A DNA stretch of 64,000 nucleotides, taken from the NCBI GenBank assembly GCA_021018995.1, contig CM037595.1, positions 96,747,491-96,811,490 on the forward strand, written 5' to 3'. Position 1 is the stretch's first letter. Every line of letters begins with the position of its first letter. This document shows positions 5,756 through 62,740 of this stretch, piece after piece. Below the pieces are notes generated by a model. That model was not told the DNA's origin. It did not search any database and saw only the letters and a program-made list of their open reading frames with translations. The DNA comes from Chloranthus sessilifolius (lineage: Eukaryota; Streptophyta; Magnoliopsida; Chloranthales; Chloranthaceae). The translations under genes and the position numbers were made by a program.

Positions 5756-5757
5756 AT

Positions 5758-5769
5758 TGGTATCAGAGC
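5758..5769 (+). other. Primer binding site (tRNA-iMet)
   Basis: TGGTATCAGAGC lies two bases after the 5' LTR. It is the standard plant LTR-retrotransposon site complementary to the 3' end of initiator tRNA-Met. Confidence 0.9.
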
Positions 5770-10264: not shown

Positions 10265-10269
10265 TTGAT

Positions 10270-16640: not shown

Positions 16641-17126
16641 ATGGGGCAGTGCTACGGCAAGAACATTTCCGTCCAAGGAGACGGCGTCGAATACCCTCAG
16701 TCACCGTTACCGGCGGGTAACGGCGCCGTCAACGTGCCGTCAGTTAGGAACACGCCTGCTCACTCGTCTGTGACGAGCCCATGGGCTGCGAGTCCGTTAC
16801 CGACGGGAGTGTCACCGTCTCCGGCGAGGTCAACACCCCGGAGATTTTTCCGGCGGCCGTTTCCGCCGCCGTCGCCGGCCAAGCACATAAAGGCATCGCT
16901 GGCGAAGCGGCAGGGGCTACCGAAGGAGGGGCCGATACCGGAGGAGGGGGGCGACTCGGAGCGGGCGCTTGATAAGAGTTTCGGGTACGGGAAAAATTTC
17001 GGTGCCAAGTATGAGTTGGGGAAGGAGGTTGGGCGGGGGCATTTTGGGCATACGTGTTCGGGGAGGGCTCGGAAGGGAGAGATCAAAGGGCAGCCCGTTG
17101 CTGTTAAGATCATCTCGAAGCTTAAG
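16641..17126 (+). CDS. CRK: CRK exon 1 (residues 1-162)
   Basis: Start codon at 16641, first in-frame ATG with the family-typical MGQCYGKN. Encodes the Pro/Ser-rich N-terminus and the ATP loop through [11 protein letters not shown]. Donor GTGAGC at 17127; phase 0. It is much more GC-rich than the flanking DNA, which creates spurious open frames on both strands. Confidence 0.95.
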
Positions 17127-20100: not shown

Positions 20101-20755
20101 TCTCATTGTTTTGGATGGATTTCACATTAACATAAACTATTAGGATGCTAAATGAATTTTTTATTGACAGATGACAACTGCGATATCGATTGAAGATGTT
20201 CGTAGGGAGGTGAAAATCTTGAAAGCTTTATCTGGGCATAAAAATCTGGTCAAATTTCATGATGCATGTGAGGATGCCAATAACGTCTACATAGTCATGG
20301 AGTATGCTCTTACCCAATTTGCTTGAAACCTATTTATCGACGATATTTCTTTACTATCAACAAATTTTTTAGGACTGTTGCAAATTTTTAAGCTGATAGA
20401 AATGATTAGCATCGGTTCAGATTCTAAGTCCGACATTTGATCATAAGTTTATTTCCTATTTGTTTTTTTTTCTCAAATTTTTGTGTTATTTGTCTAAAAA
20501 TTTTCAGATTTGATTGATTGAATTACATTACTGAAACATTTTTCATTGCATCAGTTACTTTGGTGATCAATGATGAGTTTCTTTTTGGAAAATTTTGTTC
20601 AAGATTGTTATAGTAATTTGGTATGATTCCCATCGTAATTTTCTGAAGTTTCTTTGTTGATTAGATTGTGCGAAGGTGGGGAGCTATTAGATAGAATTTT
20701 ATCCAGGTAAACATGACTTGTCTGTTTTGTCAATAGTTTAATACATGTGTTGATG

Positions 20756-20789
<34 letters not shown>

Positions 20790-22190
20790 CAGATTGAGCG
20801 CAGGGGATAGGCATCTGGACGCAGCCCTGGAGGGCTGCACCTGGAAGCCATATCACATGCCACCTGGCATGTGACACCCAAAACAACACCCGTTTCGGGT
20901 TGTCCAGCCATGTAGCATGTGGTTTTAAAAAAAATAATTTTTTGACTTTTTTTGTCCTGATTTTATGAGTCAAGGATAAGATAACCCTCAAACAACTTGG
21001 TGCATTGAATTTGGGCACCTTTGACCACATATCTAATACTGGATATGCATTGGATTGTGCCCAAAATTTTTGAATGCACCTGATCGTTCTTATCCAAGTT
21101 GCGGTGTCAACCGATCCTCTATCAGATCAAGCAAAGATTTCATTGAAGTAGTATGTTGTTGTGCATTTGTTGTAGAGGTGGAAGATACACAGAGGAGGAT
21201 GCAAAAGCCATTGTTGTGCAAATTTTAAGTGTAGTTGCCTTTTGTCATCTTCAAGGCGTTGTGCATCGTGATTTGAAACCCGAGGTCTGCATTTTTTTAG
21301 CATTAATGATTCCACTTATTCCTACGAGAAAGAAATGGTTCTTTATAAATTTCTGTGCATAAAAAACTTGTCTAACTGTTGACACCTTATGCTCTGGACT
21401 GCTCAACAGAATTTTCTCTTCACCACTAGAGATGAAGATGCTCCAATGAAGCTTATTGATTTTGGTCTTTCTGACTTCATCAGACCAGGTAAAAGTTCAT
21501 TGACCATCTTTAGTACTCTCATATTTTATCTTGTAGTGCAGTATTTAAGAATCTTCCTGCATCACTATTGAATATCTCAAAGCAACAGAAATCATGAATC
21601 AATTGACCACACCGTGTTATCCTTCTTGTATACCTACAATCCTTATTGGAAGATGATTGCCATTGTCTTTACTTTCAGTTTCACTCACTTTTTGAAGTCA
21701 CATAGTCATGGGCACTTGATTCTCGAGCTCTTTGCATTGGGCTGCTTGAACTTAATTTTGGTGGTAGAAGTTGTGGATAATAATATTGGGCACTTTAGTG
21801 CTGGTGGTTTCATGAAGCTAAGTGGTGCTGACCAGCATAGTTACGAAATTCGTCGAAATTCAAAAATACAGGGTTCACAAAACTTTTGCTGAAAATTTCG
21901 GCCATTTTGGTAATTTCCCTTAAGTTTTTTGGTGAAATTTCCTTTTTTCGGTTTTTTTCTTTTCCAGTTTTTTTGGTTTATATTGAAGAAAACAACAAAA
22001 TTACTTTTAAATTAAGCTATCCCTTTACCTTTGAGCCTCCCCCCACTGTTTGTATTATATGTCTTTCTCTTTATGTAAGTGGGTGCATGAGTGTAAATGG
22101 GTGTGTCAATGATATTTTATAAGTGATATAAATACTAATAATAGAAGGGGATTGAGGAACAAAAACTCAAATCCTAATTTCTCCCTCCCT

Positions 22191-22229
<39 letters not shown>

Positions 22230-25200
22230 TCCTCTTCCTCACCTAACCCTAACTCTAATCCCACTTCACTAAATCTGACATGGTATCAGAGCGGGACTGA
22301 TCATGTGCTTCTTCTCTGGTGTGCTGACATCACCACTGACCTGCTGACGTCATCTCTGCCCAATCACGTATTCCTGAGATATATAAATCTGTGCAGCAGA
22401 TCAAGGAGTTGTTTCTCCAGGTAGCTGTTTCTGCAGGGAGTTGTTCCGCAGGTAGTTGTTTCTGCAGGGAGCTGTTTCAGCAGTGCATACAGTTGTGGTT
22501 ATCCGCTGTGTTGCCTACAAGATGTTTGTTGATTTGATTCCGAGATTTTTGTTACTCTCTTTTGTTGAGAGTTGCCTAGAGTTTCTTACAAGATGTTTGT
22601 TGATTTGATTATGTGCTTTTTGTTACTCTCATTTGTTGAGATCGCTATGTAGACAACTTTAGTATTCAGGTATCTCAATTGTGGAGGAAAATCAAGTTGT
22701 GATTGGTGGTAGATATATTGCCAGTGTTGATAAGAAAGGTGGTGATGGCTCTGCACATGCATATGTTTCTTCGTGTACTTCATGGATTGTTGACTCTAGT
22801 GCTACCGATCATATGATAGGAATGTCTCCTTTGTCCCAAGTTCGTGTTGCAGATGGATCTCTTGTTCCAATGTCATGTTTGTGTTGCAGATGGATCTCTT
22901 GTTCCAATGTCATGTTTGTGTTGCAGATGGATCTCTTGTTCCAAGGTAGTTTTGTCTCCCATAACCAATGTCATGTTCGTGTTGCAGATGGATCTCTTGT
23001 TCCTGCTATTGGTAGAGGGATTGTCCAAGCTGGTTCTCCCTCCTTACTCTCTACGTTATTTGTTTTGAAAATGTCTACCAGTCTATTTAAAAATCAAAAT
23101 TGCATTGTTAACTTCTTTTCTTCTTACGGTGTCTTTCAAGATCTGTCAAGGGGAAAGGTTATTGGTCGTGACTGAGAAGATAGAGGACTCAAATATTTGA
23201 AGGACAAAGAAATCATGAAAATCAAAGGGTTCAAAGATCTGTATTTGCTGCAGCTACGTCCATTGGAGAGACTGAATTGTGGCATTCATGTTGTGCTCAT
23301 GTGCCTTTACCACGACTAAAGATTTTATTCCCACAAAAGTTAAAGATGGCTGATAGTATCCCCTTTAAGTGTGAAGTGTGTGAACTCTCGAAGCACACTC
23401 GGGTTCCCTATCCTCCTAGTCGGAGTCGGAGTAATAGTCCTTTTGAAGTTGTTTATTCTGATGAGTCGGTTCCATCTCTAGCCACTTCTATATAGGGTTT
23501 TGTTATTTCGTATCCTTTATTGATGATTATACCCGCCTCACTACAATATGCATGATGAAAATCAAAGATAAAGTTGCTTATATTTTTCCGGTTTACCATA
23601 AACTCATTCAAAATCAGTTCAATGCCTCCATAAAGTCTCTTCGCTCTGATAATGAGAGAATATTCTTCTCATCTCCTCTAGTCCTACCTCCAAAACCATG
23701 AGATTGAGTGATAGGCATTATGCCCCTACACCCCTCAACAAAATGGGGTAGTCAAAAGGAAGAACCACCATATCTTGGAAGGTGCTTGGGCCCTATTGAT
23801 TGGAAGGATGTTTCAAGAAATTTGTTGAGTAAAGCGGTTCTCACGACATGCTTTCTCATTAATTAAATGCCTACACCTATTCTTCAGGGAAAGTCTCCTC
23901 AAAGCATGTTAACATCTTTAACGCCTCTTTTTTTGTTCCTCTTAAGAGTCTTTGGTTGTTTAGCCTTTGCTCAATTCCCGAAATCAGTCTCGACAAATTA
24001 GATCCCCAAGCTGTCTAGTGTATCTTTGTTGGGTACCCTCAATCACAAAAAGCTGTATGATCCTAATACTAGGAGGAGGTTTGTGTCTATGGATGTCACC
24101 TTTTTTGAGAATGCCCCCGTCACGAAACTTCAAGGGGAGAATGTGATACGGGAAGAAAGTCCTGGTGTGCTTCCCATCGTGTATGTAGAAAAGGGTGTTG
24201 AAGTAGTTAAAGATCATGAAAAGGAGAGTGAAGGGGCTATTGAGGAGCAACTTTAATTTGATAGATATGGAAAAAGACAAGTTTTTGTGAGGAAGAATTT
24301 TAAGGAAACTCAGGTTCAAAAGGAGCCTACATCTCAGGTCACAGAAGTACATGAAGAGCCTTCATCTCAAGTCGCCGACCATGAACCTTCTCTAGAGACG
24401 GATCCTCCTAGTGATCTTGGCCTTCCCATCAGTCGGCGAAAAAGTACTAGCATCATATTGAAAAGTTTGTCTTTTGTAAAGGTTTTTCTACTTCTCATTA
24501 TTCTTTTGTGTCTTCTCTTGATTCTATTACTACTCCAACCACTATTTATATTGCTTTGTCTCGGCCAATGTGGAGAGAGGCTATGATTCAAGAGATGAGG
24601 GCGTTGAAGCATAACAAAACATGGGATGTTGTTGACTTACTTGAGGGTACATAAAATGTGGGATACAAGTGGGTTTACACAGTGAAGTACATGCCAGATG
24701 GTTCAGTGGAAAGGTACAAGGCTAGATTGGTAGCAAAAGGAATCACTCAAACTCAGGGAGTTGATTACCAAGAAATGTTTGCTCCACTTGCAAAAGTTAA
24801 CACTGTCAGGGTCCTGTTATCCTTAGCTGCTTATAGGGGTTGGCCTCTGTCACAGTTGGATGTGAAGAATGCATTTCTTCATGTGATTTGAAGGAGGAAG
24901 TTTATTTAGCACTCCCGCCTAGCTTTGTCAAACAACGGAAGACCAAGAAAGTGTGCAAGCTACCCAAGTCTATCTACGGGCTAAGGCAATCTCCTCGTGC
25001 ATGGTTCTAAAAATTCAATGATGCCATTATGAGATGTGGATACATGAGAAGCCACTATGATCACACTCTCTTTGTGAAGAGAGGGATATGAACTACTGCT
25101 CTACTAGTATATTTTGATGATATGATCATCATTGGGGAGAACAATGATGAAATTCTCCGATTGAAGTGCTGAGTCAAATTTCGAGATAAAAGCTTAGGGC

Positions 25201-34200: not shown

Positions 34201-35336
34201 CAGGGGTTTGTTGGAAGTACAGTTGAGGTTGCGACACTTCGTTGTTTAAAATTGTAAGAGTTTGTTACATACACAGATGGGTATACATGTGGAGAAGTTT
34301 GGTTGGTTAGAAGTAAAAGTGGAGTTCTGTTTATTCGTTGATGGCAGGAAAGGATATATGATACTGACCGTCTGTCACCTCATCTTGTTAAAGGTTTGGC
34401 ACACGAAGGGCTTTGAATGAATGGGAACTCAACAAGTGGTGAGTTCTCGTTGGTATTATTCCCCTATATAAGCTAGTCGATGATGTAAGAAGCAGTGGAT
34501 GGAAAAGGAATACAAAATAATAGTAAAAAGTAGATGGTTCGATCAGACTGTCTTAAATTGGTCATGTATGTAAACCACTCAAGTGCTTCTTGTAAAAATT
34601 CGTGGATGTGCTTCCCTTGCAATTACAACCAATGATTCCTTTAGTATTGGATACCCCCACTCCTTTTGCCTTCGAACTGAGCTTTATGCAAAGTTCAACA
34701 GTGCTGACTTTGTCCTTTTCGTCTGCTGTAAGCCCGAAGGGTCGAATCAGCAACTCCATCCCTAGTTCTTGGGCAGCTTGTCAGCACATTGGTTGAAGGG
34801 CGTATCATAGAATAGTATCATTATCTTAAAAAATCATGATACAGAAACAAGATCCTCGCATTTGGTAGCCAGTATGCCGTCATTGTATATTCATCATTTC
34901 TTAGACTCTAGAATTTTTTTTTCCTCATTCAATATCTCTTCTATCATGATATATGCGTTCTTCTCCTCTCTTTTATAATCATACATGAATGGTAGAAAAT
35001 TTACCATGTTAAACAAGCATGCCAATTATATGCATGCTTGTAATAAACTCTTTTTGAGCCAATGCAGCAAATCAAAGAGGCGTAGCGAGAGGCTAAGGAA
35101 AAGAAAAATTAAAGCAAAACAAAACCTAATGAAGGGTAAAAAAGGGAAAAATTAAAAAAAAAAAGAAAAAAAAGGAGGTATCTCTAAGGTGGCCAAATTT
35201 GTCAAATCGTGTATCATAATCAAGAATTTTTGTAGTGTGTATCATATCGTATCAAGCATCGTATGATACATTAGATTTTTATAAATATGTAGGAAAAAAA
35301 TATAAATATATCGAAAATCTAAAAATAAGAAAATAA

Positions 35337-35412
<76 letters not shown>

Positions 35413-41400: not shown

Positions 41401-41416
41401 GGCGTCTCAATATTCG

Positions 41417-41473
<57 letters not shown>

Positions 41474-50265: not shown

Positions 50266-50332
<67 letters not shown>

Positions 50333-53300: not shown

Positions 53301-55474
53301 TACACTTGCAGTGTCAATTCATTGACGGACTCATAAGTTTAAAACAAAATGCCTATCCTAAGAAGGGCAAGGAAGATACTAAGGATGAAATGTGAGCCAA
53401 AAGCTTAGGAACAATAGCAAGTGCTCTTGATGGGGACATCAGAACTAAAGCACCATTTACCATGTACAGAAGGCGCAAAAAAACCCAAGGCGCTTCGGAC
53501 ATAATGGATTGGCGATTGAAGGGAATACGTGGGTGCCACATGTGAGAGAAAGAATGCGCTCATGGAAGGAGTGAATGGAAGCAAAGAAGGAAGAAAGGTA
53601 GGAGAATCGACTATCTGTCCAAACTTGCCCGAGCGAGCTCTATTCTCGCTCTAGCGAGATCATATAGAGAGGCCCCAAAAATAATCTGGAGACGTAGTTT
53701 GAACTTGCCCGAGCGAGTTCCAATCTTGCTCGAGCCAGAGTGTAGATCCAGACTCGCTCGAGGGAGTCCAGATCTCGCTCAAGCGAGATTGCGCATGGAT
53801 ATTGGTTTTAGATGCGACTTTTGAGTTTTAGTTTCCTTTTTAGACTTGGAGTCTTTCTATTTTTGTTTGGTATGCTTTGTTAGAGTTTCTTAAGCTATAA
53901 GTATAATTTTGTAAAGCCAATTAAACACTTAGATTGATTACTGAATGCTTTGAATTAAATTTCAAACTTGAGAGAGCGAATCTTCTTCCCCATGGGGGTT
54001 GGTGCGAGGCCAACTAATATATCCTTCTTATCCACTTTTATCTCTTGATTACGTGTAAGTGAATTTGTTACGTTGTATCTTTTGATCCTGAATTAACATC
54101 GTAAGTTCGCTTGTTCGATCTTTCTTGTTTCTAAACCGAAGATCGTTCTAAGTCCTACATGCGAGGTTTTTTGTTTTGACCCTTATAATTACAATTACGT
54201 TCAATCCCTTTCGTTTATTGTTTAGTGTGGAGTTGAAAGAATCCATCATTGGTTTCGTTCAATGCCCTAGACTGTCGGAGGTCTAGTTCATTCATCAGAA
54301 CCCTAGTCTTCTAAATCCTAGAGGGAACGTACTACGAATATTAACACTAATTTGAGTTATTCTAAATTGCTAGATTAGGAGTTCTTTTATTTTCTTTGTT
54401 AATTTGCGTGGGAAATTATTGCTCTAATTGTTTGTGTTAATTTAAAATTAATCTAAGCCCAAATCATATTAGGTTAGTGTTTCTTTTCCTGCATCAGCTC
54501 TCCTCCTAGTAATAGAAGGTCTTCTTTAAACTTCTTAATTACTTTAACCAACCACCCATGTTAGATATTTATAAACTTTTCATGACCCCTTCACATCCTC
54601 CTCATTTTCCAAGGTAGCTAATCTTGGTGGTACCAAATGAAATAAATGTGGAGGAGTTTCAAGATAGTCATAAATGACTTTAAATTCATGCATTTTAAAG
54701 TTGTTATGAAATTTTAATAGCCACAATGCCATTTTTAGGATGAAATGTATTTTGCATGTACACGATGATGTATTAAAACCTTTTGCATGAGAAAATAATA
54801 ACTATAATGACTTTCATAAAGCGTGGGTAACGATATGGTGCAACTCATCTCTCATATATGCTCAAGATGAATGATCCATATCAAATCATGAATTAGTAAG
54901 CTTAATCTCATCCCATTGACCAGCTGGGGAGTCCCTCGGATCTAACCAGGCCAATCTCAAACATGCACAAACCATTTTATCTAGCCTAGGGGGTCCCTCG
55001 GATGTGGGATTTATACATGTTCCTGAACAACTAGGATTTGATCGATAACATGGTAGTGTGTCCAATGTTCTGAAAATCGCTCGGGGTGACTGCCTGGGCG
55101 GTTCGGGCCCCTAGGTGCCCCAATTTAGGCCTGGGTGGTCTCCGGGGCACACCGGATTTGGAGCGCCCGCCCAGGCGGCCTCCCCGGACCTGCCCTTGGC
55201 CACCCGAACCACCCCAGACCCGCTGGGTCGCCCCAGCCCCCAATTTTTTTATTTTTTAATTATCTCCTTTGTTTTTCTTCTTTTTTCCTCAGTTTTTTTT
55301 CTTCTAAGGTTTTTTTTTTCTTCTTCCTCTACTTTTCTTCTTCTCCTTTCTCAGTTTTTTATGATCTTGCACAACACTTTTTTTCAGCAACTGAGCAGTG
55401 AGCACAACTTTTTTTTTGTTCTTCTTGTCTTTTTTTTCTTCCTCCTATTCTGGCAAGTGACACACACACACACA

Positions 55475-55512
<38 letters not shown>

Positions 55513-58500
55513 CATACATAGAGGCCGCCGGGATCTTGGGGCGCCCGCCCGGGCGTCACCTAGCGATTTCCGCTCGAACCCACCCAACGATTTTAAGAAC
55601 ACTGAGTGTGTCTTATTTTTTTATGACACTAAGTGCAATATGTCGGGCCCCTAGGCACTGCCTTTGTCTGAGAGTCCCAATTCTATCCCAGTGGAGGTTG
55701 TGGGCGGTGGCCAACTATTAAAACGTGGGTGCATTAAACCCAAGCATTCGTGTTCGGTGGTTCATTTTGGGAGACGTGCTTGGCGAAATCATTCTCATTG
55801 TATAATCATTAAGCGTTAAACACAACCTCCCCAAAAGCGCCAAGTCTTTATTTTACGGAGTAACATGCTACCTAGGCAATGGAAAGCCCGGTTAGGCAGG
55901 GTCATATCCAACGTGCGTTTTCACCAACGCGATCCAATACTAAAGCCTAATTTATGGATTTTGTTTGGCTCGACTGTTAAATTGCCCAATCTTTTATGAA
56001 CTGGCCATTTCAAAAAATTTCCAAAGCTCATCCATTTAAATGATTTAATATAAGGTTGGAAACCCATCATATTTCCTAAATTAAACTTTAATTCGGAAAT
56101 CCACCATTTCTTCCAAACAAAGGTAGCTATTTCTTTAGTTCAAAATTATATCCAAATTTAGTAAAATCCTTTTAAGAAACTCACCGAACTTAGTTTGGTG
56201 GGTGTCACTAGAGCTTATTTGGACTGTGAATTGGATAGTTTTTTGTTGACAGTAAATGACGCTGATTTAAAAATCAGACCAGACCTGCCTATCCAACCGG
56301 GTTGACCAGAACATGCGCTTTCACCAACTCGATCTAATACTAAAACCTATTTTATGGGTTTTATTTGGTTTTACTGTTCAACCACAGTTTTTTTTATGAA
56401 ACACCAGTTCAGTTGGTTTGCAAAAAACTGGGCTGATTCAAATAAACGCTTTGCTTATTTAAGAAAAAGTATAAATATATACATTTTTGGAAAGTTTTGC
56501 AAAGTTCATCAATATAAATTATTTAATATAAAGTTAGAAACCCATCAAAATTGAGCTTTTTGTGAATTTAAATTTTAAATTTGGAAATGCACTGTTCCTT
56601 CCAAATAAAGATTTATTTCTAAAGTTTAAAATTATATCTAAATTTTGTAAAATCCTTTTAAGGAACTCACCTAGCTTAGTTTGGTGGGTTTCCTAGCAAA
56701 TTAATTAACAAAATTAGAAAAGTTCTAATTTCGTTAGATTTGTTATGTTAAATTTCAAACATGTTTTTCACCATTTTTTATTTAAAAAATACTTGAAAAA
56801 CTATTAATAAGCTAATACAATACGATGATTGTATTACCTTAAAGATGATGAATAAATCAAAGATTTTTAGGAGATGCACATAAAATAGCTTAATGGGTTT
56901 CTTAGCAAATCAACATACTAAACTAGAGACTTAATTTAACTAGAACTCTATAAAAAAGGAAATTTAATATATTTTTATATTTATTATTTTCGGATAAAAA
57001 ATATCAAAACTAAAATAATTTTTTTTTAAATAGGTAAGTTGTTCAATTTATTATTATTGGGATATTATAAAATTAAATAAAATACTTTTATCTAAGTTCC
57101 AATTTTAATAATAAGGTACTGTTTGGTAATTTGTCCACCATTGATCTATTTCCTTGGATCTTCTCCCACAAGCCAGAGGAGCGAGAAGCTCAATACTGTT
57201 GACTAGTTGTATTCCACAGCAGAGAAACGATGCATTGTTGACAATTTCCAAGTTGAGTGCTTTAGTGGTGAAGCACTGTGTTATTTTGATCACGGTATCA
57301 AACTCAGTATCGGATATCGGTGCATCTTGGACCGATACATATCGGCCGATATGGATACGGTATTGCCGATGCTGTATCGGTTGAATTTTTCTTTTTGAAA
57401 CAGAAACAAAAAAAAAACCTAGTATCGGTCAGTTTCGGCCGATACTGACCGATACTGGTCAGATACTGATACTGCTACCAATAACACCCCGATACCTGTA
57501 TCGAGGTGGTATCGATATTAGTTCTTGACGAAACTGATACGTATTGGGCTCTTCCGAGTTTTAATGCCATGATATGATACCTTTTTATGAGATATTTGTT
57601 CATACTACTTCATCTAAGTGTTGTATTTTGCAGAGCTACTTCACAGTGGTAATCTCCCTGGAGTCAAAATTGTAGTGAATATGGTTTTGAAAGAGCAAAT
57701 GACATATGCCTGAATGTTATGGTGGGGGTAGTTTGTCGTTCACTGTGGAAATTTGTTCTGGGAGCTTGAGGGCGCAAATAACTATATCTTTAATGAAGTT
57801 AATTTCTGAGAATATTTTATTTATTGTTTGCTTGGTTTCACTATATTTAATAAGAATTTATTTTCTTTTTCTCTCTTCTCAAATAATTATATTGTTTATC
57901 AAGTGAGCTTTCATCATTATCACTGCCTTGTCCCATCTATTGGGGGTAGGCTTATCAAGTGAGCTTTCTTACCACTTTCAAAACATAAGTTTAAATTAGA
58001 GTGGAACATATAAAGCCCGGAATCTAAGATCAAGGAACCATGATCAAATGATCAGGATTGAGTGCTTTTGAATGAACAATCATGATAAAGTGAGCAAGAT
58101 TGAGTTACCACGAATGTCGTGGTTAGGTTTAGTTCTCTCTCTCTCTCTCCCCGAGGTGATCTTATCTCTCTCCCCGAGGTGATCTTACAAAGGAAGATTA
58201 AGAAGTAGAAGAAAGAGGAAGAGGAACAAGTGAAGTGGAAGAAGAGAAAATTGGAGAAAAATGAGAGAGAATTAAATCTTAATGGGCAATATCAAAGACC
58301 TGATAAGAGATTAATTAGGGTCCATGATACAAAGTGTCACGTGAACCATTGTTAGCAAGAGCAGAAAATGCAAAGGGGTTTTAATGCACTATCACGTGAT
58401 TAATCAATCGATCATGTGTAGCCTGATAAGGGTCAATGAGGTATGTGGTTGGCTTGTGGGTTATGAAAGAAGATTTGGTGAAGATTCATGAAATCTATTT

Positions 58501-61500
58501 ATGTCAAGGTTTAGAATCTCGGTATCGGTCTGTGGCGCTACCGAGACATCGTCTTGGGTATTGCTGATACAAACTTCGTGTCAGTGATACATCGAAAAAG
58601 GGGCCCAAAACTAAATCATTTAAAATTTTTATAAAATATAATGTATTTTATATAGGGCCTAAGACACCTGTATTTTTCGTCTTGTGCCCTTCCGATACTG
58701 AGTGGTATCGTCCGTTATGTCCCGGTACCAGAGAAGTTTTTGAACTGTGAGTTCGTTAACTTTGTTTTATTCACATGATTATTTGTAATAAGGTCCTATT
58801 AATTAGGAGATTTAGTAGAGGCGAGATTTTTCTTTAAGAAAAATAACATAAAGTTTAAGTGAGCTATTTTATGGCTTTAAGTCTACTTAGTTCCTAGTTT
58901 AATTAATGTCCTACTTTTTCAAGGATTTTATAGGTTTAGAGTTGATTAGAAAGATGGGTATTAGGGGCAAGAACTTGTGACAAAATAAGAGTGGGGAGAA
59001 ATCAACATGACATGAGTGGTAACTCCCTCATTAATTTGATCTTTTATCTTTAATAGCATGTGATTCGCGGGTGTGTTAAAGAGTTATAAATCTTATTTAA
59101 ATAGGGAAATATGTATTCAAGGGATTTAGTACCTTTTGCGTACTCCTTTATTTCATTCTACAAATGGTTTATGATTTATTTTTAACGAATAAGACTCTTC
59201 AAGAGCTTTGAAAATCGAGATTCCTATAGTGAAAATCGTGTGTTTATTTCATCATCACCATCACAGCCTTTTCCCATCTATTCGGGGTCGGCTTAGCGAG
59301 TCCTTTTACTCCACCCGAGTCTGAGTTAGATGCGCCCTTTGTGTATTTGATCAATTAAGTACGTTGATTACATTTACATGTTTTAATTCCTTCTTTGTGT
59401 TGTTATCTTCCTCTTTTACCTACTCGACCCGTCTCTCTCTCTCTCTCTCCCTCACAAAATGTCAACTTACTATGGTCACTGCCAAACATTTGTACAACCC
59501 GTTTAGTTTATAATAGTGTTAGCCAAACAATCGATAAAGAATATCCAAATAATGTATATTTTGAATTGATGTAACTGAGCCATCGGTGAGATACCACTCT
59601 AAAAGAGCTAGAATTCTAACCTTGTGTCAGGACCTATGGGCCGGGGGGCAGTCTCAGGTATTCGCAGTGTAATATTAAACGCACATATTTATGCATCCAA
59701 ACTGGTTGGATCAATTAGGTACGTTGATTACATGTTTTAATTCCTTCTTTATGTTATCTTCCTCGTTTACCTACAGTGCCCGTCTCTCTCTCCCTCACAA
59801 AATGTGAACTTAATATGGTCACAGCCAAACATTTTGTACGACACGTTTAGTTTGTAATAGTGTTAGCCAAACAACCGATAAAGAATATCCAAATAATGTA
59901 AATTTTTTCCCGACTTAACCGAGTCATCAGTGAGACACCACTCTAGAAGAGCTAGAATTCTAACCTTGTGTCGGGACCTATGGGCCAAGGGGCAGTCTCA
60001 GGTATTCTCAGTATAATATTAAATGCACATATTTATGCATCCAAACTGGTCCTTGTTAGGTCTTAAGAAAGGTCATATTAGGCCAAAAGACTTCCTATAT
60101 TGGACTGTTTTGGCTTTTATTAAGTTGCTGTTATTAACAGATTTTAAGAAGGGGAATGACAGAGTTGGGAAATATGGAAATACTTGATGTCAAAGAATAT
60201 TTGTTAGATTATAAATTAGGTGGTTTAGGAGGTCTCAGGTCAAAGACTTCATTGAATTATATAGCAGGGAGATTTGGAATGTCTTAGCCTCTTAGGTGAT
60301 TTAAATTAAGAGAAATCATTTGCTTTTTTTTCTCGTTTATTCTATGTTTTGCTTCACTAGAATTGAAAATTAATTGTTTGATTTGCAACTTCAATTGCTT
60401 TTGCATGGATTATAGTAGTAGGATTTGCATCGCCAAATTGTTGAGAATCCACAAAATTTATGCTCATAGATATCTTTGCTTTGTTTGCTCCCAAACCATC
60501 ACTTTAGTTCTCACGGCACTATTTTGAGAGTGAGCATTGAATACTAATATGTGAGTGTGTGCATGTGAGATTAAAAATCATTTGATATTTAAAATTGTAA
60601 GTAGCTTGTTCTGGAATCTCATGGGGGTTAGATGCGTTGGTCATGGAAGTGGAGGTCCCGAGTTCAAGTTGTCCCCTTGATGCCACCCCACGGGATTTAT
60701 CCTGGCGTGTGTGGGAAGGGGGACCACAGGATTTATCCCGTTCTAACCTGGCGTGTGTGGGAAGGGGGACCACAGGATTTATCCCGTTATAACCTGATGT
60801 GTGTGGGAAGGGGGCCACAAGCCCGAGGGATGAGTTGGATCTGACCCGTCTGGATAACCCGTCATCAGGAAAAAAGGAAAGAAATAGAGTAGCTTATTCT
60901 GACCGGTCCCTTGAAAATTACTTGAGTATTGTGAGGTACTGTCCATGCCTAAATCGGATCATTAATAATTTTTTATTCAGTTGTTTTTGTTTTACAGTAT
61001 GTTATTTATCTGACAACTAGCATTTGTTATTACACATTAGGAAATATATATCTCATTTAATATTATAGTGTTAATCTAACTTTTTGTCCGAGGGTAGACA
61101 ATCTATTACTATAAATTGGAGATACTACTGGCTGCTGCCTTCATATCGGACACAGCAAACTTATTGATTAAACAATAATCACTGATAAAGCTGTGTTAAC
61201 GACGTGGCTATGCTTTGTGTCCAATAATAAATGGGGTTCATGTGATGTCAATAGCCCCAGATTATGGAAATATTGGAATCATCCTGCCTTCTCTTCTTTA
61301 TCTGTTTCCTTGGTATTAGGTACCCACCTGAGCACCAACAGCGGCACTCATGTCAATCTCCCAATGCCACCATTGGGGAATGCCCATACATTATTGAATG
61401 CCAAATTTGTGGAAGGTTGGAGAAGTATATTTTCACTGATTTGCATGCTAATAGTTAGCTGGGCACTTCCCGAGACTTGACCATTTGGTAAGGAGATTGA

Positions 61501-62051
61501 CCCGAGTGCCGTTGCTGGTACTCAGGTTGCATACCTAATACCAACTCTTTTTCTGTTATTTTTACTGTCTCAGCCTGTTTGCATCTCTAGAGTTCTAATA
61601 AATTTGCCTGTTGTTGTTGCTCCTGCTACCCGTAAATAATCACTTTTTTGCATGGTTTTCATCCCAGATGGATCAGCTCTCTTATAGGAAGATGGATTTT
61701 GAAGAATTCTGTGCAGCTGCGATCAGCCCATATCAGCTGGAGGCGCTTGAAGGGTGGGAGCTGATTGCCAGTACAGCTTTTGAATACTTCGAAGAGGAGG
61801 GAAACCGAGCTATCTCGGTTGAGGAATTGGCTCGGGTAAGGATAGTACATTGGCTAGAGATATCAAATATATTGTTTTTTAAACACAACAAAACCTGATT
61901 ATGTTTGCAGGAAATGGGCCTCAGTTCAACGGCTCACTCGATTCTCCGCGATTGGATCAGACATTCTGATGGGAAGCTCAGTTTCCTCGGTTATACTAAA
62001 TTTTTGCATGGTGTGACGATAAGAAGCTCAAACACAAGACATCTGCAGTAG
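16641..62051 (+). CDS. CRK: CDPK-related protein kinase (CRK), complete 11-exon gene
   Basis: This is a Ser/Thr kinase of the plant CDPK/SnRK superfamily. CRKs resemble calcium-dependent kinases but have degenerate EF-hands, and they respond to calmodulin in the members studied. Eleven exons join in phase to 577 codons, normal family length. Gly2 and Cys4 of MGQC fit N-myristoylation and palmitoylation, so membrane attachment is expected. Residues 5-120 are a Pro/Ser-rich variable region. The kinase domain (about 124-385) has the glycine loop G131-x-G133-x-x-G136, Lys156, Glu175, HRDLKPEN (250-257), DFG (273-275) and APE (297-299), all intact. A basic amphipathic stretch (about 399-420) is the likely autoinhibitory/calmodulin-binding site. 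Loops at 440-451 and 517-528 resemble EF-hands but begin with Glu instead of Asp. All introns are GT-AG. The coding span is 45.4 kb, about 96% intron, full of transposons. The sequence looks functional; expression is unknown. Confidence 0.95.
17381..17607 (-). mobile_element. tRNA-derived SINE with 15-bp TSD
   Basis: The 15-bp direct repeat AGTTTAGCCCTTATT occurs at 17366-17380 and 17608-17622 and exactly bounds the unit. On the - strand it carries an A box (TAGGGAAGCTGG, about 17582-17593) and a B box (AGTTCGAATCC, 17539-17549). It ends in an A-rich tail (ATCAAAAATATATATATTC) next to the left repeat. This is a textbook SINE, inserted antisense to the host kinase gene. The perfect TSD suggests a fairly recent insertion. 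Confidence 0.9.
17969..18351. mobile_element. MITE bounded by (TA)n on both sides, with four G-boxes
   Basis: (TA)9 precedes the left end at 17951-17968, and a (AT)7-like tract follows the right end at 18352-18366. The left end GGGAGCCGGTTAGGTCCTCC, continuing with GGAGGACGGTCACTGTCCTCC, pairs with the right end reverse complement, in which GGAGGACGGTCACCGTCCTCC is the nearest match. The interior has four CACGTG G-boxes (18061, 18253, 18283, 18295), the last two inside a perfect 20-bp palindrome. Insertion within a TA microsatellite resembles the rice Micron class. No coding capacity. Confidence 0.75.
18681..18933. mobile_element. hAT-like MITE, TTTGGCAACCCTTTTCC ends
   Basis: The left end TAGGCCCTCTTTGGCAACCC pairs with the right end reverse complement TAAGCCCCTGTTTGGCAACC. 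Both continue into a matching CTTTTCC..AA.CACTTTTCA arm of about 45 bp. The interior contains further inverted words (GTTGTGTCTC / GAGAAGCAACATG). TSD is ambiguous. Confidence 0.75.
20171..20301 (+). CDS. CRK: CRK exon 2 (residues 163-206)
   Basis: Acceptor TTGACAG, donor GTATGC. Encodes [20 protein letters not shown] and onward. Glu175 is the helix-C glutamate that pairs with Lys156. Ends two bases into codon 206. Confidence 0.95.
20302..20664 (+). other. CRK intron 2 (363 bp)
   Basis: GTATGC...GATTAG. AT-rich; nothing else recognised. Confidence 0.9.
20665..20706 (+). CDS. CRK: CRK exon 3 (residues 206-220)
   Basis: A 42-nt microexon-sized segment encoding [13 protein letters not shown], the hinge and start of the C-lobe. 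Acceptor GATTAG, donor GTAAAC. It is too short to appear as an independent open frame and was found from the protein family and splice phase. Confidence 0.93.
20707..21175 (+). other. CRK intron 3 (469 bp) with TA tract and MITE-like sequence
   Basis: GTAAAC...TGTAG. A (TA)n tract at 20759-20786 is followed by a MITE-like block up to about 21125 with self-complementary words (GGACGCAGCCCTGGAGGGCTGC, TGCCACCTGGCATG). Only weak terminal inverted repeats were found. Its position next to (TA)n resembles the MITE in intron 1. Confidence 0.55.
21176..21284 (+). CDS. CRK: CRK exon 4 (residues 220-256)
   Basis: Encodes [20 protein letters not shown] and the catalytic loop VVHRDLKPE. Acceptor TGTAG; donor GTCTGC is a weak match to the consensus, but the phase and protein continuity with exon 5 are exact. 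Confidence 0.94.
21410..21488 (+). CDS. CRK: CRK exon 5 (residues 257-283)
   Basis: Acceptor CAACAG, donor GTAAAA; intron 4 is 125 bp. Encodes [20 protein letters not shown]: catalytic-loop Asn257 and the metal-binding DFG at 273-275. Confidence 0.95.
22281..22292 (+). other. Primer binding site (tRNA-iMet) of + strand Copia
   Basis: TGGTATCAGAGC directly abuts the LTR end AAATCTGACA. Confidence 0.9.
22681..23175 (+). pseudogene. Copia protease remnant with internal 37-bp repeats
   Basis: The frame carries [12 protein letters not shown], the Copia aspartic-protease active site, normally D-S-G-A; here Gly has become Ser, so catalysis should be lost. The coding block [11 protein letters not shown] then repeats: the 37-bp unit beginning GTGTTGCAGATGGATC starts at 22844, 22881 and 22918, and again at 22979. 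Since 37 is not a multiple of three, each extra copy shifts the frame. Confidence 0.8.
23268..24260 (+). pseudogene. Copia GAG-pre-integrase and integrase remnant
   Basis: [16 protein letters not shown] and [16 protein letters not shown] are the pre-integrase H-x-C-C zinc region. The core follows in other frames (FIDDYTRL, then LRSDNE near 23640). The tail [20 protein letters not shown] at 24055-24110 is the connection to reverse transcriptase. Frameshifts and stops throughout. Confidence 0.85.
24586..25483 (+). pseudogene. Copia reverse transcriptase remnant with 173-bp duplication
   Basis: [40 protein letters not shown] and [12 protein letters not shown] at 24658-24885 are diagnostic Copia RT motifs. 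After a stop, [13 protein letters not shown] and the catalytic-site region [10 protein letters not shown] follow, where the usual Y-V-D-D is altered. Bases 25138-25310 are repeated in tandem at 25311-25483 with few differences. Confidence 0.88.
25526..25889. mobile_element. hAT-type MITE inside Copia RT
   Basis: Ends TAGGGCTGTCAATTGGTAGG and, reverse-complemented, TAGGGCTGTCAACGGGTCGA. The interior is rich in CGACCCGACC words. Flanks AACTGAAT and GGCTGATT share 5 of 8 bases. The interruption falls in the Copia polyprotein between PIEQNHQL and [12 protein letters not shown], which are normally near neighbours. A relative lies at about 62877-63221. Confidence 0.85.
25890..26812 (+). pseudogene. 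Copia RNase H region remnant
   Basis: [15 protein letters not shown], then [18 protein letters not shown] near 26160-26218, and [12 protein letters not shown] with final LGMIDIYPP near 26650-26812 are Copia RNase H landmarks in shifting frames. Interrupted by an inverted 71-bp segment (26056-26126) and a MITE (26255-26469). The stop is followed by the purine-rich GAGGGAAAG tract just before the 3' LTR. Confidence 0.85.
26255..26469. mobile_element. 215-bp hAT-type MITE, perfect 8-bp TSD
   Basis: Ends CATGGGTTAAA...TTTTGACCCATG form the terminal inverted repeat. ATCAAACT occurs at 26247-26254 and 26470-26477. The interior is filled with GATACGTATCG-type words also seen at 11690-11830, 35195-36080, 57290-57560 and 58510-58745, which are probably relatives. 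Confidence 0.85.
26821..27060 (+). repeat. 3' LTR of + strand Copia (240 bp)
   Basis: TGTTGGGTGTGTGGTG...AAATCTGACA, preceded by the purine tract GAGGGAAAG. It abuts directly the interior of the - strand Copia element at 27061. Confidence 0.9.
27061..27760 (-). pseudogene. Copia pre-integrase and integrase remnant, - strand
   Basis: On the - strand: [20 protein letters not shown] (pre-integrase HHCC region), then [40 protein letters not shown] and [13 protein letters not shown]. Further left is [12 protein letters not shown], the conserved integrase D-D-35-E neighbourhood. Broken by stops. Truncated at 27061. Confidence 0.88.
27766..28706 (-). mobile_element. Solo LTR (941 bp), Gypsy-type, inside the - strand Copia
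   Basis: Perfect 5-bp duplication ATTGT at 27761-27765 and 28707-28711. Read on the - strand the LTR starts TGACGGGGACGCCG and ends CCATCCCGCATCA. Near its start (28420-28590 on the + strand) lies a cluster of GGACGTCCGT-type palindromic words. It belongs to the same family as the solo LTR at 53428-54496. It splits the Copia protease/pre-integrase frame exactly at the duplication. Confidence 0.9.
28712..29022 (-). pseudogene. Copia protease region remnant, - strand
   Basis: [20 protein letters not shown] carries the protease active site D-T-G-A (intact triad), and [21 protein letters not shown] the downstream conserved segment, followed by [16 protein letters not shown]. The frame is lost where the solo LTR begins. 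Confidence 0.85.
29170..29790 (-). pseudogene. Copia gag remnant, - strand
   Basis: The 93-codon frame at 29170-29451 has [20 protein letters not shown] and [17 protein letters not shown], the conserved Copia gag (UBN2) centre. Upstream gag sequence to about 29790 is present with stops. No intact zinc knuckle was located between gag and protease. Confidence 0.8.
30605..30730. repeat. 49-bp tandem repeat, 2.5 copies, in Copia leader
   Basis: The unit beginning GATGGGGCAGTGTKCGTTGCC starts at 30607, 30656 and 30705 with few changes. It lies between gag and the primer site of the - strand Copia, in its untranslated leader. Confidence 0.85.
30767..30778 (-). other. Primer binding site (tRNA-iMet) of - strand Copia
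   Basis: The + strand GCTCTGATACCA is the reverse complement of TGGTATCAGAGC, one base from the LTR end. Confidence 0.9.
30780..31091 (-). repeat. 5' LTR of - strand Copia (312 bp)
   Basis: On the - strand it begins TGTTGGCACATGCAAG and ends CTCATTTTTATAACCATCA, next to the primer site. A TATA-like GGATATAAATAG lies inside. No second copy is present in the window. Confidence 0.85.
32337..32633 (+). CDS. CRK: CRK exon 6 (residues 283-382)
   Basis: Acceptor GTGCAG, donor GTAAGT. Encodes [20 protein letters not shown] (activation segment and APE), [20 protein letters not shown] and [20 protein letters not shown], the C-lobe. It lies almost 11 kb from exon 5, yet phase and sequence join exactly. 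Confidence 0.96.
32865..32974 (+). CDS. CRK: CRK exon 7 (residues 382-418)
   Basis: Encodes [20 protein letters not shown] and [17 protein letters not shown]: end of the kinase domain and the basic amphipathic junction segment. Intron 6 is 231 bp. Donor GTTCCA is weak, but it is the only GT that preserves phase with exon 8. Confidence 0.94.
35353..35409. repeat. (TA)n microsatellite
   Basis: About 28 uninterrupted TA units preceded by (TG)n at 35338-35352. Confidence 0.95.
36094..36500. mobile_element. Long-TIR MITE, Mutator-like, 9-bp TSD
   Basis: A fold-back element of 407 bp. The left arm (AGTACCTTTAAATCCAACC, continuing CTTTGAGTTCACCCACGCTG) pairs with the right arm reverse complement (AGTACCTTTAAATCCATCC, CTTTGAGTTCACCCATGCTG), and pairing continues inward. 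Flanks CATAGGATA (36085-36093) and CATAAGATA (36501-36509) match at 8 of 9. Long TIRs with a 9-bp duplication are the hallmark of Mutator-like MITEs. This copy defines the ends of the GATCTTGAGATCATG family. Confidence 0.8.
36655..38560 (-). pseudogene. LINE ORF2 C-terminal remnant, - strand
   Basis: On the - strand, 38250-37870 encodes GSGHRVKFL and then [14 protein letters not shown] in broken frames, the conserved post-RT segment of plant L1 ORF2. The frame 37818-37633 has [18 protein letters not shown], the zf-RVT zinc-binding domain (C-x2-C...H...), normally ending in a third Cys where this copy has Val. The protein signal then jumps across the hAT insertion (36711-37584) to [15 protein letters not shown] at 36709-36660. 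The region to 38560 probably belongs to it but is weak. It is a 5'-truncated, dead LINE. Confidence 0.75.
36711..37584. mobile_element. hAT-type element (874 bp) inside LINE
   Basis: Ends CATGGTTGTCAAGTCG and, reverse-complemented, CAAGGTTGTCAACTCG. Flanks TTCGAAAC (36703-36710) and TTGGAAAC (37585-37592) match at 7 of 8. Subterminal words GATTCGATTTACGATT recur at both ends. Interior is AT-rich, with no transposase. Confidence 0.85.
39316..39423 (+). CDS. CRK: CRK exon 8 (residues 419-454)
   Basis: Encodes [20 protein letters not shown] and the first EF-hand-like loop (440-451), where Glu replaces the leading Asp and the last ligand is Asn, so calcium binding is doubtful. Acceptor ATGCAG, donor GTTAGT. 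Confidence 0.95.
39541..39650. repeat. 57-bp tandem duplication in intron 8
   Basis: The word AACCATAAAATCAATTCTTT with surrounding bases starts at about 39548 and again at 39605. The following CTGGACTGCCAGA words also repeat. Intron 8 is otherwise 371 bp of plain AT-rich DNA. Confidence 0.8.
39795..39857 (+). CDS. CRK: CRK exon 9 (residues 455-475)
   Basis: 63 nt encoding [20 protein letters not shown] plus Ala, a conserved CRK segment between EF-hand-like units. Acceptor ATGCAG, donor GTATGG. Too short for an ORF scan; placed by family homology and phase. Confidence 0.94.
41331..42637. mobile_element. hAT-type element (1,307 bp) with perfect 8-bp TSD
   Basis: ACTACGAC occurs at 41323-41330 and 42638-42645. 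Ends are CATGGCAGTCAAGG and, reverse-complemented, CAAGGTAGTTAAAG, giving the CA...TG termini usual for hAT. GCCATGGCGACG subterminal words occur at both ends. The interior holds (TA)n at 41419-41468, CT-rich DNA, a 221-bp tandem duplication and a fragment of the GATCTTGAGATCATG family. No transposase. Confidence 0.8.
41890..42315. repeat. 221-bp tandem duplication inside the hAT element
   Basis: CATAATTTATTCTATATACA begins at 41911 and 42132. GTCGGGGCTTGATTCTTGAA and ACTAAGTACAACTGAACCC follow at the same spacing in both copies. Confidence 0.85.
42720..43260 (+). pseudogene. LINE endonuclease remnant, + strand
   Basis: Broken frames encode [11 protein letters not shown] near 42738, LFQESKI near 42820, a GG-rich MLWMSW segment near 42900, [19 protein letters not shown] at 43045-43100 and a SKGAATFT segment near 43230. 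In this order they are the landmarks of the L1-type apurinic endonuclease domain of plant ORF2. Stops and frameshifts abound, and RT is absent. The DNA left of the hAT element (about 41060-41330) probably belongs to the same LINE. Confidence 0.55.
45797..45808 (+). other. Primer binding site of Gypsy element
   Basis: TGGTATCGGAGC, one base different from the tRNA-iMet complement, four bases after the LTR end CA. Confidence 0.8.
46265..46603. mobile_element. TIR-flanked insertion in Gypsy leader/gag
   Basis: Left end TGATTCGCGGGTTTGCTCGG pairs with the right end reverse complement TGATTCGCGTTCGGTTCCCG. A B-box-like GGGTTCGAGTCTT at 46510 hints at a SINE fragment inside. TSD not confirmed. Confidence 0.5.
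46690..46790 (-). mobile_element. Probable tRNA-derived SINE, - strand
   Basis: On the - strand, TAGCACAATGGA (A box, 11 of 12) is followed about 35 bases on by GGTTAGAGCCC (B box, 10 of 11). An A-rich tail corresponds to the T run at 46699-46706. TSD not identified. Confidence 0.5.
46790..47564 (+). pseudogene. Gypsy gag remnant with shortened zinc knuckle
   Basis: Broken frames encode [20 protein letters not shown] near 46820, [20 protein letters not shown] near 47115-47180 and, in an open frame at 47274-47564, the nucleocapsid segment [17 protein letters not shown]. The knuckle is C-x2-C-x4-H-x2-C; the usual spacing is x4 before the last Cys, so two residues are lost. Confidence 0.75.
47600..48060 (+). 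pseudogene. Gypsy protease region remnant
   Basis: The 78-codon frame at 47726-47962 contains [20 protein letters not shown] and [20 protein letters not shown], which align with the conserved segment after the retropepsin fold (usual wording ...VVPMDAGHILLGRPW.YD). The catalytic triad is not visible. Confidence 0.65.
48241..50000 (+). pseudogene. Gypsy integrase remnant, split by TRIM-like element
   Basis: [36 protein letters not shown] and a Q-x-GQTEVVN-like HPQ motif (degraded) at 48241-48520 are the integrase core. After the insertion (48560-49589), [20 protein letters not shown] at 49629-49688 and [20 protein letters not shown] at 49875-49940 are the core end and C-terminal domain. Stops and one frameshift. 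No chromodomain visible. Confidence 0.82.
48560..49589 (+). mobile_element. TRIM-like LTR element (1,030 bp) with TA...CA ends
   Basis: LTRs at 48560-48854 and 49307-49589 are highly similar. Both begin TA (TATTAAAGAATCTG / TAATAGAGAATTTG) and end TCTACA/TTTACA. AGGAG is duplicated at 48555-48559 and 49590-49594. The primer site CGGTATTAGAGC (48855-48866) matches the tRNA-iMet complement at 10 of 12. The purine tract GCGGGAGGG ends at 49306, touching the 3' LTR. The 452-bp interior has no protein. It splits the Gypsy integrase exactly at the duplication. Confidence 0.9.
50271..50330. repeat. (TA)n microsatellite
   Basis: About 29 TA units, uninterrupted. Confidence 0.95.
50331..52448. other. 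Unrecognised intronic DNA
   Basis: A - strand frame at 51733-51936 ([20 protein letters not shown]...) has a helical, Gln-rich look like accessory transposon proteins, but no family can be named. Nothing else is identified. Confidence 0.3.
52449..53097. mobile_element. hAT-type MITE, GGGCTCTCAAC ends
   Basis: Left end TCGGGCTCTCAACCAGCC pairs with right end reverse complement TAGGGCTCTCAACGAACC. Subterminal CTCGGCTCG/CGAGCTCG words. Same class as 2655-3156 and 4064-4901. Flanks GAAGATAT and GCAAACAT agree at 5 of 8. Confidence 0.7.
53428..54496 (+). mobile_element. Solo LTR (1,069 bp), Gypsy-type
   Basis: Perfect 5-bp duplication GCTCT at 53423-53427 and 54497-54501. Starts TGATGGGGACATC and ends TTTTCCTGCATCA. 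Bases 53615-53790 hold a cluster of CGAGCGAG/CTCGCTCGAG palindromic words. The same start, end and layout occur in the solo LTR at 27766-28706. It represents LTR-LTR recombination that deleted a full element. Confidence 0.9.
55063..55604. mobile_element. hAT-type element (542 bp), perfect 8-bp TSD
   Basis: AGTGTGTC occurs at 55055-55062 and 55605-55612. Ends CAATGTTCTGAAAATCGC and, reverse-complemented, CAGTGTTCTTAAAATCGT. GC-rich subterminal GCGCCCGCC words occur on both sides, with CT-rich and (CA)n(TA)n DNA (55460-55505) between. No transposase. Confidence 0.9.
55899..56692. repeat. Approximately 395-bp direct duplication, diverged
   Basis: Bases 55899-56211 and 56303-56692 carry the same ordered words: CGNTTTCACCAAC, AATACTAAA, TTTAATATAAGTTRGAAACCCATC, AAAATTATATC, AAAATCCTTTTAAGRAACTCACC, TTAGTTTGGTGGGT. 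The copies have drifted considerably. Confidence 0.75.
57913..57960 (+). repeat. SINE 3'-domain-like word (first copy)
   Basis: GCCTTGTCCCATCTATTGGGGGTAGGCT resembles the GGGGTCGGCT-containing 3' domain shared by many angiosperm SINEs (known as the Angio-domain). A second copy lies at 59265-59300 (CCCATCTATTCGGGGTCGGC). No complete SINE was delimited around either. Confidence 0.45.
59349..60050. repeat. 360-bp tandem duplication
   Basis: Unit 1 starts GATCAATTAAGTACGTTG at 59349; unit 2 starts GATCAATTAGGTACGTTG at 59709. Both end TATGCATCCAAACTGGT (59706, 60050). The copies are very similar apart from small indels, so the duplication is fairly recent. Confidence 0.92.
60614..60887 (+). mobile_element. 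SINE with 14-bp TSD and internal 46-bp VNTR
   Basis: Flanks AGTAGCTTGTTCTG (60600-60613) and AGTAGCTTATTCTG (60888-60901) match at 13 of 14. An A box (TTAGATGCGTTGG) lies at about 60629, with a B-box-like GAGTTCAAGTTG at 60659. The A-rich tail AAAAAAGGAAAGAAA lies just before the right repeat. Inside, a 46-bp unit starting CCTGGCGTGTGTGGG begins at 60701, 60747 and 60793. Confidence 0.85.
61668..61835 (+). CDS. CRK: CRK exon 10 (residues 476-531)
   Basis: Encodes [20 protein letters not shown] and the EF-hand-like loop [12 protein letters not shown] (517-528). Acceptor ATCCCAG, donor GTAAGG. It is 21.8 kb from exon 9 but joins in phase with perfect family continuity. Confidence 0.96.
61911..62051 (+). 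CDS. CRK: CRK exon 11 (residues 532-577 and stop)
   Basis: Encodes [20 protein letters not shown] then [20 protein letters not shown] and the stop TAG at 62049-62051. The C-terminus is typical for CRKs. Intron 10 is only 75 bp. Confidence 0.96.
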
Positions 62052-62740
62052 TTTTTGAAGTCGGGGCATTAAATCATTTCTGAAATATATATGGGTTCGA
62101 TTGAGTTCGCTAGATTTTCGGAGAGCAAATTGGTGTTTGTAGGGAGACCAGATAAGTTGAGCTTTCTCCATATTCTTTAAATAGTTTCATTTATATTATA
62201 ATATTGAAAATTGTTAAAAAAATTGAATTATATACAGAGAAGAGAGAGAGAGAGATATATAAATTGCATTGATCGATGAATTCTGACCATATGATGAACC
62301 CAATCCGAATTCTCCTTAGGGAGTTGCTAAGTGAATGACCAACACCACAAAAATTGTATTGATCGATGAATCCTGATCATATGATGAACACCTTTTTTAG
62401 TCAAATTAGGATTGTTTCCCATGTTCTATGTGATTTTCACATCGATGGTTGATCCGATGGTAAGGATTGTTTTTCTGATGCAATTTCTATTGTAGTCGGG
62501 CGGGCATTTTATGTGGACGATCGGAAATGGCTATATACAAATAACATATGTAATTTATGGATGGTCCATAGACCATCAGGGTTTCAAGGTGTCTCCAGTT
62601 TTGGGAGGATGATATGAACTTAAGATTGAGAGAGGTTTAAGAAACTGATCTAAGGACATATGAGAACGAAGGTGATATATCATATATTGTATCGTACTAG
62701 AATAACATAATAGTTTTCTTAAGGGTGAACAACTCAAAAT
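62052..62740 (+). other. CRK 3' UTR and downstream spacer
   Basis: AT-rich sequence follows the stop. A near-upstream poly(A) signal of AATAAA form is not present; A/T-rich candidates lie at 62170-62225, but the cleavage site cannot be set. GA-rich microsatellite at 62237-62254. Confidence 0.4.

Follow-up and report, generated by a model that had tools for sequence, protein, structure and literature searches.

An intact CRK3-type kinase gene with long, transposon-bearing introns in Chloranthus sessilifolius, and a CACTA family carrying copies of its 3' end

The 64,000-bp stretch of Chloranthus sessilifolius DNA analysed here (the window; C12:96747491-96811490, in a genome of 2.17 Gb and 32 contigs) very probably holds a working CRK3-type gene that is spliced across long introns and whose 3' end has been copied into a CACTA family of transposable elements. 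Judged from its sequence, this is a complete and constrained kinase gene occupying one locus. It consists of 11 exons on the plus strand, with 1,734 coding bases (577 codons plus TAG) within 45,411 bp; an earlier sequence-only reading had given the same figures, and the exon sums agree with them. All ten introns of the model, built from the window DNA, have GT-AG borders, and the exons are free of stops, frameshifts and broken splice dinucleotides. When the CRK3 protein of Tasmannia lanceolata (P0001) was aligned with the window, all 11 exons were matched, in order and on the plus strand, with E values from 2e-75 (exon 1) to 3e-4 (exon 3, of 14 residues). The sole additional match at E<=1 lies at 63.8-64.0 kb on the minus strand (E 0.04). 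Such an ordered alignment through eleven exons is far beyond chance, and together with the gene model it upholds the earlier view of ten GT-AG introns and no damaged exon. The exons, in window coordinates, are:

16641..17126, plus strand: CRK exon 1, with the start codon, the N-terminal variable region and the start of the kinase domain (E 2e-75 to P0001)
20171..20301, plus strand: CRK exon 2 (gene model, P0001 alignment)
20665..20706, plus strand: CRK exon 3, 14 residues (E 3e-4; supported by frame and order)
21176..21284, plus strand: CRK exon 4, carrying the HRDLKPE motif (P0001 alignment)
21410..21488, plus strand: CRK exon 5, carrying the DFG motif (P0001 alignment)
32337..32633, plus strand: CRK exon 6 (gene model, P0001 alignment)
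32865..32974, plus strand: CRK exon 7 (P0001 alignment), followed by the weak donor AAG/GTTCCA
39316..39423, plus strand: CRK exon 8 (gene model, P0001 alignment)
39795..39857, plus strand: CRK exon 9 (P0001 alignment), followed by the weak donor GCA/GTATGG
61668..61835, plus strand: CRK exon 10 (gene model, P0001 alignment)
61911..62051, plus strand: CRK exon 11, including the stop codon (gene model, P0001 alignment)

The closest full-length relatives of the encoded protein, among the best 120 of 7,914, are CDPK-related kinase 3 proteins, with 86% identity to those of T. lanceolata and Magnolia sinica and 82-84% to those of Aristolochia. The kinase domain (PF00069) scores 242.4 bits over 263 of 263 Pfam positions, and the catalytic motifs VAVK, HRDLKPEN, DFG and APE are intact. 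CRKs are described as having degenerate EF-hands that lack the D-x-D motif (available text of PMC11989534); inspection by eye revealed no D-x-D within residues 419-577, and the EF-hand_7 score (29.8 bits) is slightly below the cut-off of 30, as expected because CRKs have degenerate EF-hands. According to the same text, an N-terminal G-x-x-x-S/T myristoylation motif is found in some CRKs and does not define them. The N-terminus of the window protein, MGQCYGK, has G2 and C4, with G at residue 6 in place of S/T. The nearest solved chain is 9vhu, calcium-dependent protein kinase 3 (E 1.2e-104). In its full-length homology, kinase domain and degenerate EF-hands the protein resembles the Arabidopsis CRK3/CRK4/CRK6 clade, and the predicted product would be a 577-residue membrane-anchored kinase with no need for calcium. 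Ten introns are also listed in the HbCRK rows of PMC5221434, as far as that source is available, whose text speaks of 11.

Conservation was counted against 114 of the 120 relatives (six being set aside for unusual length), with near-invariant positions defined as those conserved in at least 98%. The window protein keeps all 246 such positions, including the 45 encoded by exons 8-11, and only 6 of its 577 residues are unseen in all 114 relatives. Gaps relative to most relatives are confined to the variable exon 1, and at each of the ten exon junctions 118-120 of the 120 proteins align without a gap in the neighbouring five residues. A CRK3 tree places the protein, though not firmly, close to those of Magnolia, Tasmannia and other magnoliids; its end branch is 0.11, those of Magnolia, Tasmannia and one Nymphaea being 0.08. 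The intact CRK kinase gene of the sequence-only reading is thus confirmed by near-invariant positions kept throughout and exons in order, and comparison with related CRK proteins, which it had proposed, gave the ordered exons and continuous junctions described above. It had also expected most annotation pipelines to break such a gene into several models, against which the full-length CRK3 proteins on record for M. sinica and Tasmannia speak mildly. That the gene has recently died is extremely improbable: length alone would point that way, nothing else of the kind having been found, and the undamaged exons and the constraint throughout the protein argue against it.

Because the protein is intact and constrained, we infer that the gene is faithfully spliced. 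It would be transcribed across all introns, with the ordinary spliceosome joining the ten GT-AG pairs and the silenced transposons of introns 5 and 9 being read through, as in other plants. Arabidopsis IBM2 and EDM2 sustain transcription through silenced transposons in genes (available text of PMC10241880), and machinery of this type, suppressing early polyadenylation, would probably assist such read-through, which seems to us the most likely mechanism. Of the 9 positions of the consensus MAG/GTRAGT, 4 are matched by the donors of introns 2 and 9 and 5 by the donors of introns 4 and 7; within the gene, an equal or better score is reached by 72% of all GT at the 4/9 level and by 38% at the 5/9 level. 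The borders of the weak-donor introns are therefore fixed by protein continuity and not by donor strength. These weak donors, including that of the 21.8-kb intron 9, count against full splicing, and the exons could be present only in truncated transcripts. It is conceivable that the gene mostly yields shortened transcripts ending at transposon polyadenylation sites in intron 5 or 9, as documented for Arabidopsis intronic transposons when silencing or IBM2/EDM2 fails (same source), and the weak donors of introns 7 and 9 would fit such an outcome. We consider it improbable, since exons 8-11 are conserved like the rest of the protein, and their conservation needs a full-length product to matter.

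As far as its sequence tells, the length of the gene comes from its introns, at least three of which are partly old transposon. Introns 5, 7 and 9 together measure 38,999 bp, in agreement with the 39.0 kb reported before:

21489..32336, plus strand: intron 5, 10,848 bp, with two Ty1/copia elements inside
22052..27060, plus strand: decayed Ty1/copia element with gag_pre-integrase and RVT_2 domains
27243..29469, minus strand: second decayed copia element, with gag, protease-region and integrase pieces
32975..39315, plus strand: intron 7, 6,341 bp, with a single marginal LINE-type zf-RVT piece
39858..61667, plus strand: intron 9, 21,810 bp, consisting in parts of old dispersed repeats

Open segments of at least 60 aa from these three introns were compared with Pfam. 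In intron 5, where 10 of 50 segments were tested, eight match Ty1/copia-type domains, four of them above the curated cut-off. The plus-strand copia element is bounded by repeats at 22052-22280 and 26871-27060 that are 74.7% identical, and directly after the left one, at 22281, stands the primer-binding-site-like sequence TGGTATCAGAGC, which we take to be a common primer-binding site. No convincing target-site duplication was found around this element, and no long-terminal-repeat pair around the minus-strand one. Intron 5 also contains a perfect 72-bp inverted repeat (25790-25861 / 26056-26127) and, inside the copia RT region, a tandem duplication of 174 bp (25138-25486, 97.7%).

Nine of 27 segments of intron 7 were tested, and a zf-RVT match was obtained at 37636-37833 on the minus strand (27.4 bits; cut-off 27.5). 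The 42 of 78 segments tested from intron 9 yielded no Pfam transposon domain, the few matches being to unrelated families and all below cut-offs. DNA repeat searches of this intron, covering 45700-48500 and 50500-54500, identified old dispersed repeats at 45.7-48.5, about 52.5-53.1 and 53.4-54.5 kb, with main matches 69-88% identical. The part at 46.8-48.5 kb has at least dozens of genomic matches (main rows 69-79%) and that at 53.4-54.5 kb is likewise repetitive (72-88%, a lower bound); with 40 candidates scored, the copy lists of the intron-9 repeats give minimum numbers. The part at 50.5-52.4 kb was without a match in this search. A gypsy element suspected by eye at 46.7-48.4 kb from zinc-knuckle- and integrase-like segments was dropped after giving no Pfam match at E 10; one of the suspected segments had no homologue in our search, and no long-terminal-repeat pair was found around the intron-9 repeat. 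The earlier description of all three introns as packed with dead retrotransposons therefore holds for intron 5, is marginal for intron 7 and is not borne out by transposon domains in the tested segments of intron 9, though repeats are present there. A tandem duplication of about 350 bp (59346-60050, 85.6%) was also observed in intron 9.

The length of the gene had been presented as remarkable, a view which is not supported. A CRK3-like paralogue at C3:147491563-147594204 would span about 102.6 kb if its four collinear matches form one gene; 4 of 11 exons were located (L010, L012, L035-L038), with exon 1 placed at 147491563, exon 6 at 147533182, exon 7 at 147533725 and exon 10 reaching 147594204. 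In Chloranthales, magnoliids and gymnosperms, genes lengthened by transposons are described in print as common (PMC8626473, PMC10487979, PMC9364684, each in its available part). In Chloranthus, 876 of 2,184 orthologues are longer than 20 kb, RNA support having been required for an intron to be accepted (available text of PMC8626473). MSH1 reaches 805,861 bp, with an intron of up to 101,025 bp, and is longer than 50 kb in 34 species (PMC10487979, in part); in Magnolia biondii introns average about 2.8 kb, some of them being exceptionally long (PMC7917104, in part), and the accessible portion of a gymnosperm review states that transcript accuracy seems little affected by very long introns (PMC9364684). 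The CRK gene shares with such long genes, MSH1 among them, conserved exons and very long, retrotransposon-holding introns; set against these sources, it differs in nothing of kind, and 45 kb with a 21.8-kb intron lies inside the published range. The Medicago CRK genes, in contrast, are given as 4.1-6.7 kb in the available text of PMC7864493, against 45.4 kb here. The gene is thus one more clear example of exons remaining intact as introns grow by transposons, useful as an annotation test and not surprising.

A protein search gave the first sign of dispersed copies, finding additional exon-10 copies without the remaining gene. The DNA concerned is the following:

61238..62160, plus strand: captured CRK segment, comprising the end of intron 9, exon 10, intron 10, exon 11 and the start of the 3' UTR
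61310..61547, no strand assigned: short repeat with inverted ends, in intron 9 shortly before exon 10 and within the captured segment (23 further matches, 72-79%)

A DNA search with this segment returned 61 rows, including the window itself. Apart from the C3 paralogue (77% identical), 17 rows, counted as 15 copies, are 85-94% identical to the window, one copy on C2 and one on C8 each being split in two, on C8 with 12 kb between the pieces; another 23 rows cover only the short repeat at about 61310-61547 and 19 are short. Nine of the 15 copies end at one base, window position 62005, and therefore share a common deletion and form a subfamily. Since introns are retained in the copies, capture took place at the DNA level; it would have occurred at the window locus, the copies then spreading by transposition.

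Six copies were fetched. Their identity to the window amounts to 90.5-95.8% in exon 10 and 90.6-94.3% in the stretch from intron 9, so that exon and intron do not differ and no sign of constraint is seen. Changes among the copies, summed over pairs, number 49, 50 and 80 at codon positions 1, 2 and 3. Three of the six have stops in exon 10 and a fourth has lost a codon, and all six retain the splice dinucleotides, acceptor and donor, that border exon 10. From these sequences the examined copies appear to decay neutrally. Their distances to the window (0.057-0.094) correspond to very roughly 19-31 million years if one applies the rate given in the available text of PMC8626473, 1.51e-9 per site and year. 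Two copies, L029 and L030, differ by only 0.004 (0.4%) in the captured segment, and movement was therefore recent at least once.

The existence of scattered copies of exons 10-11 makes a displaced copy a real possibility, and hence that exons 10-11, or 6-11, of the window come from another gene or a stray copy lying 21.8 kb downstream by chance. Several observations make this very improbable. Exon 10 of the window has no residue unseen in the 114 relatives, as against two to six in each of five copies (L033, with the lost codon, was left out of this comparison). Homology of the six fetched copies around exon 10 ends within 61238-62160, the other shared pieces being unrelated repeats; a stray transposon copy in the window was excluded on these two grounds. 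In the C3 paralogue, too, exon 10 follows exon 7 at a distance of some 60 kb. When six blocks of exons were set against 120 proteins of CRK3 type and 120 of CRK5 type, a CRK3-type protein scored best for every block, including that of exons 10-11, CRK3-set medians exceeded CRK5-set medians, and the first CRK5-type protein stood at ranks 121, 121, 119, 120, 115 and 121 of 240. Exons 6-11 are therefore not from another kind of CRK. Blocks alone cannot tell adjacent CRK3 copies apart, and the P0001 alignment revealed no duplicate CRK exon within the window. The second locus for exons 6-11 that the sequence-only reading had itself raised thus finds no support in the blocks or in the contiguity of 118-120 of 120 relatives across the exon junctions, and a two-locus origin was rejected in favour of a single gene.

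Elements carrying the segment were followed to both ends at 3 of the 15 loci:

C4:95982815-95992890: C4 element, 10,076 bp, starting with CACTACAAAATAAAGG and ending with CTTATTTTTTGTAGTG; flanks GTG/GTG
C6:97193409-97201268: C6 element, 7,860 bp, with exact CACTACAAAA ends; flanks GTA/GTA
C1:116632655-116641033: C1 element, 8,379 bp, with one mismatch at each end; flanks GTA/TTA

Terminal repeats CACTACAAAA...TTTTGTAGTG stand on both sides of the CRK segment at the three loci and are exact in the C4 and C6 elements. The target-site duplication of the CACTA superfamily is taken here to be 3 bp, and perfect 3-bp duplications flank two of the three elements (GTG in C4, GTA in C6). Duplications of 5 nt are mentioned for CACTA elements of rice and maize in the available text of PMC8903248. 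Four copies, L030 among them, have a common right terminus and different flanks. On this sequence evidence the CRK 3' segment is carried by a Pack-CACTA family, a known kind of element. That the scattered copies arose instead by segmental duplication or by another vehicle, such as a Helitron or LTR element, is unlikely. Both ends are known at few loci, and the mixing of several gene pieces is Helitron-like; this is opposed by the CACTA repeats at every locus where both ends are known, the perfect duplications at two of them and the right terminus shared by copies with different flanks. A Helitron vehicle was in fact dropped once the CACTA ends appeared.

The putative Pack-CACTA elements hold further gene pieces, all oriented as the CRK piece: a NAP exon in the C4 and C1 elements (28.4 and 27.4 bits, just below the cut-off of 28.6), a boron-transporter exon in the C1 element (E 1.6e-15 to BOR1) and an RTF1 Plus-3 exon, which scores 67.6 bits in L033 and has homologous DNA in the C6 element (L029; 16.9 bits). 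Two loci with CRK and RTF1 pieces, L033 and L034 (C8:81443667-81453166 and C5:81979514-81989013), have a different CACTA-like terminus, CACTACAAAATCTGTGTC in reverse; given this different right-end inverted repeat, two or more CACTA types may have taken part. The left end of this element type was searched for and not found. Its terminal repeat also occurs inside the C6 element, and the elements are therefore composite. The C8 copy is interrupted by about 12 kb that include a Ty3-type gag. No transposase was detected among the few open segments of the copies run against Pfam.

As in Pack-CACTA and other Pack-TYPE elements and in soybean Tgm-Express1 (PMC8903248, PMC1947982, PMC13317346, each in its available part), the present elements are CACTA elements, presumably non-autonomous, with several host-gene pieces whose introns are kept. 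They differ in their host and in their cargo (CRK3, NAP, boron transporter and RTF1), and none of them was seen inside a host-gene intron. A limited literature search found no published CACTA capture of a CRK gene. It is possible, if on balance doubtful, that the family moves, or recently moved, splice-ready last exons of CRK3 together with the NAP, boron-transporter and RTF1 pieces, and that insertions into introns in sense orientation could equip other proteins with a CRK3 C-terminus or act back on the parent gene through small RNAs. Of greater importance than the gene itself are the scattered copies of exons 10-11: they would confuse CRK3 annotation and RNA mapping in the source species, and they provide a dated, multi-copy case of CACTA gene-fragment capture in an early-branching flowering-plant lineage.

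Some further repeats were observed in the window. Foldback repeats (long imperfect palindromes) lie at 36095-36499, 17955-18366 and 13651-14055, with a reverse match of 65% between 13651-14055 and 36093-36497, and pieces related to them are present in L038 and L040. Upstream of the CRK gene, a repeat pair at 5381-5765 and 9864-10273 is 82.7% identical and has TGGTATCAGAGC at 5758; the stretch 5381-10273 is probably an LTR element.
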